NCBI RefSeq assembly: GCF_001422815.1
Contig: NZ_LMMP01000051.1
Coordinates: forward strand, 978 to 64,977
Origin: Methylobacterium sp. Leaf91
Lineage (GTDB): Bacteria; Pseudomonadota; Alphaproteobacteria; Rhizobiales; Beijerinckiaceae
DNA: 64,000 nucleotides
Reading direction: 5' to 3'
Under the pieces are notes generated by a model, which saw nothing but the letters and a program-made list of their open reading frames with translations, was not told the DNA's origin and ran no database searches. Positions 25,976 to 36,670 of this stretch are shown in pieces; within the stretch, counting starts at the first letter, position 1; each line of letters begins with the position of its first letter. A program made the translations under genes and the position numbers.

Positions 25976-27282
25976 GAAGCATGGACGCCGAAAGGAAGAA
26001 CACCGGGGGACATACGGTGGTGGTCGGCGCGTCCCTGGCGGGCCTGCGCGGGGCCGAGGCCCTGCGCCGCGCGGGCTTTGCCGGCCGCCTCACCCTTGTC
26101 GGCGATGAGCCACATCGCCCCTACGACCGGCCGCCGCTCTCCAAATCCGCTCTTACGGGCGAGGTGGCGCCCGAAGCGACGGTCCTGCCGAACCTCCACG
26201 CCCTCGCTGCCGATTGGCGGCTCGGCGTGGCCGCCACCGGTCTCGACAGGCAGGCGCGCGAGGTCCGCCTCGCCGACGGTACGACCTTGTCGTATGACCG
26301 GCTTCTCATCGCCACGGGTTCGCGCGCACGATCATGGCCGAACCCGACCGAGGCAGGCCTTGCCGGGGTCCATACCCTGCGCGGGCGCGACGATGCCGCC
26401 GCCCTGCGTCAGGCGCTCGCCCCCGGCCCCAAGCGCGTCCTCATCATCGGCGCGGGTTTCATCGGCTGCGAGGTCGCGGCCTCCTGCCGGGCCCTCGACC
26501 GCGCCGTCACGCTGATCGATCCGGGGCCGGCGCCCCTCGCCCGGATCCTCGGGCAGCCGGTGGGCGAGATCGTCGCTGCCCTGCACCGAGCTCTCGGCGT
26601 CGACCTGCGCAGCCGGACCAAGGTCGCGCGGCTCGAAGGCAATGAGGCAGGCCGGGTGGTCCGGGCCATTCTCGAGGACGGCAATGTAGTCGAAACCGAC
26701 CTCGTGGTGGTGGCGTTGGGCGCGGTGCGCAACACTGAATGGCTGAGTGGATCGGGGCTCGATGCCGGGCCGGGCGGCGTCGTCTGCAACGAGGCCGGCC
26801 ACGCCCTCGACACCGAGGGGCGTCCGGACAGGGCCATCGCCGCGGCCGGCGACGTGGCGCGGTTCCCCCATCCGCTCTTTGACGGACGTCCCGTCGCCCT
26901 TGAACATTGGGGACACGCCGTGGCGCAGGGCGAGCACGCCGGGCGCCTTCTCGCGGGCGAAGCCAATGAAACGGACTATGCCGAGATGCCCGCCTTCTGG
27001 TCGTCCCAGGGCGGGATCACGATCAAGTCGGTCGGCCTCACCGAAGGGGCGGATTCCATGGTCTTCGCGCAGGGGAGCCCGAAGGAGGGCCGCTTCGTCG
27101 TCGTCTACGGCGCGAAAGGCCGCTGCATCGCAGCCGTGTCGTTTGATTCCGCCCGGTGGCTTCCCGCCTATGCCGAGCAGATCGCCGCCCGCGCACCATT
27201 CCCTCCGATCTGCGGTGGAACCGACGAACACAATCTGACGGTGCTGTCGCCGGGCTTTCCCGAGAAACGGACATCGCCATGA
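25972..27282 (+). CDS. FAD-dependent ferredoxin reductase
   Basis: A 436-residue flavoprotein of the putidaredoxin/rhodocoxin reductase type. The FAD-binding GxGxxG-like motif is VVVGASLAGLRGAEALRR near residue 17. RPYDRPPLSK is typical of this family. The NAD(P)H site is VLIIGAGFIGCEVA in the middle. The FAD motif RAIAAAGDVARFPHPLF and the ending reductase domain complete it. It passes electrons from NAD(P)H to the upstream ferredoxin. ATG 25972 overlaps the ferredoxin stop, and its stop overlaps the P450 start. Confidence 0.93.
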   Translation: MRSMDAERKNTGGHTVVVGASLAGLRGAEALRRAGFAGRLTLVGDEPHRPYDRPPLSKSALTGEVAPEATVLPNLHALAADWRLGVAATGLDRQAREVRLADGTTLSYDRLLIATGSRARSWPNPTEAGLAGVHTLRGRDDAAALRQALAPGPKRVLIIGAGFIGCEVAASCRALDRAVTLIDPGPAPLARILGQPVGEIVAALHRALGVDLRSRTKVARLEGNEAGRVVRAILEDGNVVETDLVVVALGAVRNTEWLSGSGLDAGPGGVVCNEAGHALDTEGRPDRAIAAAGDVARFPHPLFDGRPVALEHWGHAVAQGEHAGRLLAGEANETDYAEMPAFWSSQGGITIKSVGLTEGADSMVFAQGSPKEGRFVVVYGAKGRCIAAVSFDSARWLPAYAEQIAARAPFPPICGGTDEHNLTVLSPGFPEKRTSP

Positions 27283-34465: not shown

Positions 34466-36670
34466 CTAGAACTTCAGCGCTTTGAGCACTTTCGGCTCCA
34501 CCGGCCAGGGGGTCGCCTCGTACTCGACCGCCTTCGGCAGCGGGAAGGCCTCGAACAGGGCCTGGGGCGAGTAGGCCAAGGGACGCCATGTGGCCTTGAT
34601 CCAGTCGAGGGCCTTGTCCCATTCAGGCTTGGCGCGCCGCTCCAGGCAGAAGGCGTTGAGGCGGGTCACACCGGCGCCGAGATAGAAATCCCGCACCCGG
34701 TGATCGACTTTCTCCTGATCGTCGTCGAGTTTGAGTTCCCGGCCTTCACCCTGGCCATAGGTAGCGAACCAGGAACTGGGAATACCGTAGCATTCCGCGA
34801 TCACGAGGCCGTGGAGCGAGGTGGAGAGGATGTGTCGGCAGGACACGATCTCCTCAACCTTGGCGCGCAGGGACGGCGCATCACGGTCGGTGATCGTGTT
34901 GATGATCCGGATGTCACCCTCGCGCTCGGGGGGAATGCCGTAGCGGGTCATCACGTCGAGAACAGTGGCGGCGGGGTCCTGGGAGGCAAGCTCGGTCAGG
35001 TGAACGATGACGCCGATCTCATGGGTTTTCACCACGTGATCCATGGGCCAGAATTTAGGCAGCAGGTAAACGGGGTCGCCGTAGATCTCCGGAACCGCGA
35101 TACCCTGCGCCCTCAGCACGGCGCCGGTCTTGGGGCCACGCACGGCATGGACGTGGAACTCGGTTCCCGCAGGCCGCTGATAAGGCGCCGGGTTCGGACT
35201 ACCCGGGCAGCGCTGGGCATCGAGACCGGTGCCCCACATGTGGACCGTCCCGTTGCGGATGGCGTGTCCAATGGTACCGACCGCGACGAGACGCTCGGAA
35301 TTGCTGTCGAAGGCCGCATGCCGCACGACGCATCCCGAGATGGCGGCGACCATCACGGCACTCAGTGCGTCACCAAAATTTGCGTGGGGAAACTTCTGAG
35401 AGCTGGCCGCCCAGGCCAAGGGAACTGAACCGGGCGGCAAGGTCGACCTAACGCGCTTCAGGAGAGCGGCGGAAGTCTTTTTTTTTTCTAACTTCGCCGC
35501 GTCGTCCAATGCAGCATCTTCGACAGTCGGTTGGGGGGCATTTTTTTCAGCCATAGCTTGGGGAGCGCCTTTGGAAGGTTCATCAGGAAATCGGGCAGCC
35601 ACCGCCTTGGCACCTCCCGGAAATTCCTTGCGGTCGAGACGGTTCAATTCGCCGACATCGTGGCGGAGTTTCAGGTCGGTCAGTGCCTTGTGCTCCCAGA
35701 TCGTCTCGCCGGGCGCGGCGGAGATCGGGCTCAGATCGACAGGGAAGGCGTTGATCAAGGCATCGCCATCGAAGCTCTTCGGCGACCAGCTCTTGTCGAT
35801 GGCCTTCATGATGGCGGGCCAGTCGCTCGGCTTGGGCCGCGGCTGATTGTAGACATCGATCTTCGGCAGGCCGAGGCCGGTATAGAGATCGACGATGCGC
35901 AGGTCGACATCCCCCTCGCGGGTAAGCTCCACCGATTGCAGCCCGTCTTTGCTCAGGCTCGGCGCGAAATACAGGCAGGGAATGCCGTAGGATTCCGCGA
36001 TCACCATCCCGTGGAGGCTGGTGGAAACGATCCGCTCGCAGGACAGGATCTCGTCGATCTTCGACTGAAGCGCGCCGACATGCAGTTCGGTGACGGTCGT
36101 GATGAGATGGACGTCGTCGGCGAGTTCGGCCGGAATTCTGAAGCGCGCGATTTCCTTGCGCGGCACCGCCTCCATCTCGCGATTGGCGAGCTCCGACAGA
36201 TGTAGGATGACACCGAGCTTGTAGCGCTTCTTGACGGTCGGCTTGTAGAAAAGCGGCAGCAGCCAGACTGGGTCACCGTAGGGAACGGCATGCGAGAGGG
36301 TCTTGGCCGAGAGGAGCGATTCCGAGACCGGCCCACGTGTGGCGGTCACGGTAAAGTGCGAATTCGCCGAAGGAACGAACGGCTTCTTTTCGTTCGCCGG
36401 CGCCGAGGGGTTGGCCCAGTTCGAGCAGCCCGTCCCCCAGAACCAGACCTCACCATTGGCGAAGCCGTGTCCGATCGTACCGACGCAGGACAGGCGAGGC
36501 GCGAAGGACTTCATCGGCGTTCTGCGGATCGGCTTGCCCGAAAGCAGCGCGATCATCACCGGGCTCAAAGCGTCGCCGAAGTTGAGATAGTTCATGTCCA
36601 TGGTCGAACCGGCCCAGGCCAGCGGAATCTCGCCTTTTTCACGCACGTACCGGGTGATGGATGTCGCCAT
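34466..36670 (-). CDS. Tandem two-domain polysaccharide pyruvyltransferase
   Basis: A 734-residue protein made of two homologous domains. Domain 1 (about 1-310) and domain 2 (about 402-734) both have NFGDALS (30-36; 431-437), VGTIGH, WGTG, ARGP- or VRGP-like strands, YGDPV, and STSLHG plus VIAE-YGIP (216-230; 616-630). These are hallmarks of polysaccharide pyruvyltransferases (PF04230), normally single-domain at about 300-400 residues. The linker (about 315-400) is Lys/Ala/Pro-rich and contains Lys-Lys-Lys encoded inside a run of ten A on the coding strand. It would add ketal pyruvate to sugars of the exopolysaccharide. Whether both domains are active is unknown. Confidence 0.88.
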   Translation of the reverse strand: MATSITRYVREKGEIPLAWAGSTMDMNYLNFGDALSPVMIALLSGKPIRRTPMKSFAPRLSCVGTIGHGFANGEVWFWGTGCSNWANPSAPANEKKPFVPSANSHFTVTATRGPVSESLLSAKTLSHAVPYGDPVWLLPLFYKPTVKKRYKLGVILHLSELANREMEAVPRKEIARFRIPAELADDVHLITTVTELHVGALQSKIDEILSCERIVSTSLHGMVIAESYGIPCLYFAPSLSKDGLQSVELTREGDVDLRIVDLYTGLGLPKIDVYNQPRPKPSDWPAIMKAIDKSWSPKSFDGDALINAFPVDLSPISAAPGETIWEHKALTDLKLRHDVGELNRLDRKEFPGGAKAVAARFPDEPSKGAPQAMAEKNAPQPTVEDAALDDAAKLEKKKTSAALLKRVRSTLPPGSVPLAWAASSQKFPHANFGDALSAVMVAAISGCVVRHAAFDSNSERLVAVGTIGHAIRNGTVHMWGTGLDAQRCPGSPNPAPYQRPAGTEFHVHAVRGPKTGAVLRAQGIAVPEIYGDPVYLLPKFWPMDHVVKTHEIGVIVHLTELASQDPAATVLDVMTRYGIPPEREGDIRIINTITDRDAPSLRAKVEEIVSCRHILSTSLHGLVIAECYGIPSSWFATYGQGEGRELKLDDDQEKVDHRVRDFYLGAGVTRLNAFCLERRAKPEWDKALDWIKATWRPLAYSPQALFEAFPLPKAVEYEATPWPVEPKVLKALKF

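Follow-up and report, generated by a model that had tools for sequence, protein, structure and literature searches.

The described system closest to the locus considered here is the dnaX gene of Thermus thermophilus, where a run of nine A's gives rise to two proteins, the tau and gamma subunits: transcripts that hold 9 or 9+3n A's yield the full-length form, and transcripts of other lengths yield a short form that makes up about 50% of the product (PMC1088944). Frameshifting is also reported for two tssM genes, at about 20% for tssM1 of C. rodentium, which has eleven A's, and at 15-25%, to a truncated form, for tssM3 of Y. pseudotuberculosis (PMC4256274). In T. thermophilus the RNA:DNA hybrid is 9-10 bp long and slippage in vivo is efficient at 9 A's or T's (PMC5009743), and the polymerase of E. 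coli, which needs at least 7 T's and more A's, is less prone to slip on A runs than on T runs (PMC6260861). Judged by these figures, which come from the polymerases of other species rather than from that of Methylobacterium, a run of ten A's is within the slippery range. The complement of lysine tRNAs enters the comparison as well: the frameshift site of E. coli dnaX depends on one weakly pairing tRNA-Lys, and the presence of two lysine tRNAs may be relevant to the use of polymerase slippage by T. thermophilus (PMC5009743). A published screen for such sites was confined to longer slippage products; the truncating class, whose short products contain no long stretch of new coding sequence, is difficult to assess through comparative analysis (PMC1088944). 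On the side of the enzyme, the PEP-binding Arg and His of the pyruvyltransferase CsaB are R148 and H308 (PMC10435577).

Here we describe a run of ten A's between the two domains of a tandem pyruvyltransferase in Methylobacterium sp. Leaf91, in a window (the whole stretch of DNA that was analysed) of 64,000 nt. The run itself, its uniqueness, its conservation, the frames around it and its placement would together fit a conserved transcriptional slippage site of the T. thermophilus dnaX type, a reading that we favour by a slight balance and in which slippage would proceed at some rate and the short form would be put to use.

The run and the gene that carries it

An earlier note on this DNA had described a T run encoding Lys-Lys-Lys between two domains of a tandem pyruvyltransferase, and its position, codons and placement in a linker are all confirmed. 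Ten T's occupy 35478-35487 on the plus strand, which are ten A's on the coding (minus) strand; they form nt 1184-1193 of the gene and fall in codons 395-398, GAA AAA AAA AAG, which encode the end of a Glu and Lys-Lys-Lys. The features of the locus are as follows.

34466..36670, minus strand: tandem polysaccharide pyruvyltransferase gene, 734 aa (open reading frame; Pfam PF04230 in two stretches, E 4e-21)
35660..36670, minus strand: domain 1, residues 1-337 (boundary placed at the drop in pLDDT at 338; free-standing homologues in genomes G251, G279 and G358)
35447..35659, minus strand: interdomain linker, residues 338-408 (modelled with low confidence; its part ahead of the run is variable)
35541..35547, minus strand: shorter A7 run in the linker (GAA AAA AAT; found in none of the six relatives with the gene)
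35478..35487, minus strand: A10 run, codons 395-398, the proposed RNA-polymerase slippage site (ten A's long in all seven genomes that have the tandem gene)
35448..35477, minus strand: stretch after the run with the stops of both shifted frames (TGA 35458-35460, TAG 35448-35450)
34469..35446, minus strand: domain 2, residues 409-734 (absent from any frameshifted product; a separate gene in G251, G279 and G358)

The protein scores 76.6 bits against PS_pyruv_trans (PF04230), whose gathering cut-off is 25.3, in two stretches, and the longest low-confidence segment of its AlphaFold model, residues 338-408, includes the run; the two agree on a tandem pyruvyltransferase with a linker, as the gene had been described. 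The model, built with 9 sequences, is of modest quality (mean pLDDT 63.8, pTM 0.45) and was used only for the linker and the family fold. The best solved fold that Foldseek found for this modest-confidence model is yeast Pvg1p (5ax7; E 2.5e-3, prob 0.95); none of the 614 Foldseek matches reached E 0.001 or better, a sequence search of solved structures returned nothing at E up to 1, and the NCBIfam CsaB equivalog scored 18.7 bits, far under its cut-off of 213.1. Both domains keep R-G-P and S-T-S-L-H-G motifs, which by the family pattern would contain the counterparts of the Arg and His that bind PEP in CsaB. Genes nearby on the same strand encode, by Pfam, two glycosyltransferases (Glycos_transf_1) and a protein of the NAD-dependent epimerase family, and another neighbour has a sub-cut-off match to PEP-CTERM-associated outer-membrane families.

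Runs of this kind are rare in this DNA. The A10 is the only A/T run of at least 8 in the 64,000-nt window and, as a run of at least 9, it lies within a coding sequence; no A10 arose in any of 100 dinucleotide shuffles of the window, and codon usage in 12 window ORFs gives a probability of 0.005 that EKKK is spelled GAA AAA AAA AAG. It is also the sole A10 and the longest A run of the whole assembly (5.26 Mb, 52 contigs), where the one other run of A9 or more is a T9 on contig C45, behind an apparent GC hairpin. On these counts of bases and codons, the run stands out from what ordinary chance would produce. The next-longest run of the window, a T7 on the plus strand at 35541-35547, lies in the same linker, 53 bases away from the A10; at its site five relatives have GAC or GAA AAG ACT, and a sixth (G049) is without that stretch.

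Conservation of the run in Methylobacterium

A search of 111 genomes of the genus found any match, at E up to 1e-3, in 10 of them, and the whole tandem protein in 7, the window's own included. These seven form one clade and stand for one species each, five of them being 95-97% alike at the DNA level, and the tandem proteins of the six relatives are 92-94% identical to the window protein. Within this one clade the run is exactly ten A's, with identical codons, in every genome that has the whole gene, at a dS between the window and its relatives of 0.29-0.57 in the domains. Mean dN is 0.107 in the linker as against 0.015 and 0.010 in the two domains, about seven to ten times as high, and it is the part of the linker upstream of the run that is least conserved and also variable in length: among the six relatives 75 of its 135 nucleotide columns are identical, compared with 56 of 57 from just before the run onward and with 919 of 1050 and 830 of 972 in the domains. 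If only the six relatives are compared, no stretch of the gene is invariant over a greater length than the 56 nt that cover the run and the sequence just after it; with the window species included, the invariant stretch at the run falls to 15 nt and is outside the gene's nine invariant stretches of at least 20 nt.

Two probabilities can be set beside the unchanged codons, both as guides only, the columns being non-independent and the counts small: a product over the four codons of about 0.17 from the tandem gene itself, and a chance of conserving GAA AAA AAA AAG of 0.007 (by window codon) or 0.025 (by majority codon) from neighbouring ORFs. Within the tandem gene the codon is kept at 26 of 36 invariant Lys columns and 16 of 35 invariant Glu columns (the run's own four included), and by this yardstick alone the conservation of the run is unremarkable. 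In 19 neighbouring ORFs, compared in six genomes, AAA was kept at 4 of the 24 invariant Lys columns that have AAA in the window (4 of 14 by majority codon), GAA at 20 of 68 and AAG at 130 of 152 invariant columns; on these counts AAA is a rare, unstable codon here. The neighbour count used a third-position filter and 6 of the 7 genomes (G008, whose contig there is 20 kb, was omitted), and its ORFs were chosen mechanically, so that at least one (26412-26966, minus strand) overlaps a likelier plus-strand gene.

Other long A runs of the seven genomes provide a control. There are 112 places of A8 or longer, of which 108 were compared by orthology, the 4 omitted being places of one genome (G009) at two long poly-T tracts. 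Four groups of runs are present in all seven genomes. Besides the A10, which is ten long in each, these are a run next to a GC-rich hairpin (8 or 9 long), an apparently intergenic A8, and an A8 at the end of clpS. The A10 is the longest of the four, the only one of at least 9 in every genome and the only one shown well inside a gene, and in the one-contig genome (G049) it is the sole run of A9 or longer. At the end of clpS, ATG GAA AAA AAA TAG, the A8 abuts the stop codon in 7 of 7 genomes (Pfam ClpS 7.3e-23; L126:698-712, minus strand, G000:C34). We know of no slippage role for this A8, and conservation of an A run does not by itself imply that it is programmed.

Three side observations belong to these runs. 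Slippage at the clpS A8 would carry reading past the stop toward the next gene. The apparently intergenic A8 (L119:701-708, G000:C6), which all seven genomes keep, may serve as a promoter up-element. In G009:C1, T tracts of 52, 22 and 14 bases (1691842-1691893, 3787458-3787479 and 1869293-1869306; L033, L151) exceed any run listed in the six other genomes, and are possibly an assembly or insertion artefact.

Consequences of a shift at the run

A one-base change had been predicted to drop domain 2 and spare domain 1, and the prediction was borne out when the run was changed in length by script: four of the six changes made, from -3 to +3, alter the reading frame, and each of these leads to a stop at residue 403-407, leaving a product made of domain 1 and part of the linker. 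In the window gene, 9 A's lead to TGA and a 403-aa product and 11 A's to TAG and a 407-aa product. The arrangement is shared by all seven genomes: both shifted frames are closed 5-9 codons past the run, and the products, of 398-411 aa, end just beyond domain 1. With 9 A's the C-terminus is EKKR(L/A)P(P/S)LS in 7 of 7, followed by TGA; with 11 A's it is EKKK(D/E)(F/L)RRSPEA(R/H) in 7 of 7, followed by TAG in the window species and by TAA in the six relatives. As a yardstick, both shifted frames are closed within 10 codons at 1.2-4.2% of codon positions, gene by gene. Up to 60 codons past the run, only one start codon stands at the same place in all seven genomes, the ATG of window residue 440, which is inside domain 2 and about 33 codons beyond the early stops; it was considered as a place where translation of domain 2 might begin anew.

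RNA structure around the run was also considered. A hairpin with the A10 in its loop was rejected: its shuffled-arm p ranged from 0.01 to 0.34 in 6 of the 7 sequences (G052 omitted), and no pair had changed on both sides. Single folds gave whole-stretch z values of -1.36 for the window and of -0.97 and -2.41 for two relatives (L009 and L010), the second of these relatives having a different fold near the run. None of the structures considered makes a convincing stimulator.

Relatives outside the clade

In a sample of 397 genomes from the order, matches at 1e-10 were found in 21, two of which are among the seven. In three of them (G251, G279 and G358), of other genera, a domain-2-like and a domain-1-like protein are each encoded by a gene of their own, with the domain-2 gene coming first; a fourth (G205) has a fused form of 725 aa and a separate domain-1-like gene, and a fifth (G197) has a fused form. 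Since domain-1 proteins are free-standing in G251, G279 and G358, a domain-1-only protein is a natural form in the family; the C-terminus of these proteins is an Ala/Lys-rich tail, which falls roughly where a slipped product would stop. The A run was observed only in the Methylobacterium clade, and no A/T run of at least 6 was found in the fused relatives of two other families (four loci with fused genes, from G205 and G197).

At the locus in G205:C27 (L085, L063) the domain-1-like gene lies directly upstream of the fused gene, so that one- and two-domain forms stand side by side. In the fused relative of G197:C1 (L087), domain 1 reads STSLYG where the other aligned sequences have STSLHG, and by this substitution that domain may be inactive.

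Alternative explanations

The chief rival to programmed slippage is a slippery run without function, one that arose once in the ancestor of the clade, where some slippage occurs and its short product is tolerated, and that persists by lag or through a need of the linker for EKKK. We think this rather unlikely. The smallness of the clade speaks for it, as do the within-gene figure for codon invariance, which is only about 0.17, and the clpS gene, which keeps its A8 in 7 of 7 genomes; and a screen limited to genes with longer products saw no sign that slippage is used in 40 of the 53 bacterial A9/T9 gene groups (PMC1088944). It accounts less well for a run of AAA codons held constant where neighbouring genes keep AAA at so few invariant Lys columns (4 of 24) and where the rest of the linker is fast-changing, or for the early closing of both shifted frames. 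A shift could also arise on the ribosome: the zero-frame heptamer A_AAA_AAG, present in 7 of 7 genomes, could direct programmed -1 frameshifting, as in E. coli dnaX, to a domain 1 product ending EKKKDFRRSPEAR. However, a tRNA scan of the genome (44 matches, 43 with an anticodon assigned) found tRNA-Lys(ctt) (CUU) besides tRNA-Lys(ttt) (UUU); none of six Shine-Dalgarno core motifs was found in the 25 nt upstream in any of the seven genomes; and there is no well supported stem downstream, where folds are weak and without double changes. Because of the second tRNA-Lys and the missing or weak stimulators we rank ribosomal frameshifting lower and consider it improbable.

Slippage during DNA replication, rather than transcription, would turn domain 2 off and on in sublineages, and this was how surface sugar decoration had been suggested to become phase-variable. 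A homopolymer within the ORF of a likely surface-polysaccharide gene, at which a one-base change removes domain 2, is what such a mechanism would call for, but the run is constant at 10 in 7 of 7 genomes, one per species, and shows no difference in length among them. A weak point against it is that, among the abstracts considered, the two that specify a tract (PMC8355987 and PMC3786947) give G/C or poly-G, and the others specify none. The constancy of run length across species favours programmed slippage over phase variation, the other of the two earlier ideas, and we now regard phase variation as very improbable. On the opposite strand, the T10 might be the T tail of an intrinsic terminator acting on antisense transcripts, its conservation then being unrelated to the reading frame. 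In one relative (L009, the one scanned) a terminator-like hairpin does precede the plus-strand T run, with the same letters in six relatives; but there is no such hairpin at the run in the window species, and the number of matches was within shuffle expectation in both scans (window and L009), and an antisense terminator seems to us extremely improbable.

Proposed programmed transcriptional slippage and what it would mean

Under programmed transcriptional slippage, RNA polymerase, with an RNA:DNA hybrid about as long as the run, would slip in a fraction of transcripts and add or drop A's. Messages with 10 (or 10 +/- 3) A's would be translated into the full tandem enzyme, and messages of other run lengths would reach a stop 5-9 codons on and leave domain 1 followed by a short tail rich in Lys, so that one gene would provide two enzyme forms in a set ratio. 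The early stop would leave about 1 kb untranslated and could reduce expression of the downstream glycosyltransferase gene. That some slippage occurs at the A10 in this organism is probable; that the short form is made and used we would put at an even chance; and that the A10 sets the ratio of one-domain to two-domain pyruvyltransferase and, through the early stop in translation, tunes the downstream glycosyltransferase gene is a tentative and somewhat doubtful proposal. The earlier idea of two products by polymerase slippage thus gains indirect support, in that the unique run, the conserved codons, the early-closed frames, the placement in a linker, the free-standing relatives of domains 1 and 2 and the two lysine tRNAs are all consistent with it.

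A literature search that covered few subscription journals found no work joining transcriptional slippage with Methylobacterium and nothing by title on this gene; for Methylobacterium and pyruvyl transferase it returned only a placental microbiome study. If true, the proposal would add a Methylobacterium enzyme of polysaccharide decoration to the cases of programmed slippage, and would do so in the truncating class, which the published screen left aside (PMC1088944). If confirmed, one gene would dose two pyruvyltransferase forms in a set ratio without a regulator, and lone A/T runs in the domain linkers of other GC-rich genomes would be worth a look. As a candidate, the locus is compact and open to testing, its genome has no other A10, and run length compared across species can tell slippage sites from phase variation.

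Comparison with known systems

As an enzyme, the protein resembles the PF04230 members CsaB and Pvg1p in its Pfam match, found in two stretches, and in having Pvg1p (5ax7) as its best solved fold; it differs from them in carrying two copies per chain and in falling far beneath the CsaB equivalog cut-off. With E. coli dnaX the run shares the zero-frame heptamer A_AAA_AAG and a shift that leads to a short product, whereas here there is no upstream Shine-Dalgarno-like motif and no clear downstream stem, and a second tRNA-Lys is present. The likeness to tssM3 of Yersinia pseudotuberculosis lies in the outcome, with the zero frame giving the full protein and slippage a truncated one (PMC4256274), although that is a secretion-system gene for which the effect was shown by blots and reporters, and the present case is known from sequence alone.

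Thermus thermophilus dnaX belongs to another gene and pathway, its run has 9 A's rather than 10 and lies seven-eighths of the way along the protein rather than at 54%, and its two products were measured where ours are predicted from the letters of the gene. In their design the two are nevertheless alike: an uninterrupted run of A's on the sense strand, a zero frame that gives the long form, nearby stops in both other frames, a short form without the C-terminal part, and two tRNA-Lys in the genome (PMC1088944, PMC5009743).
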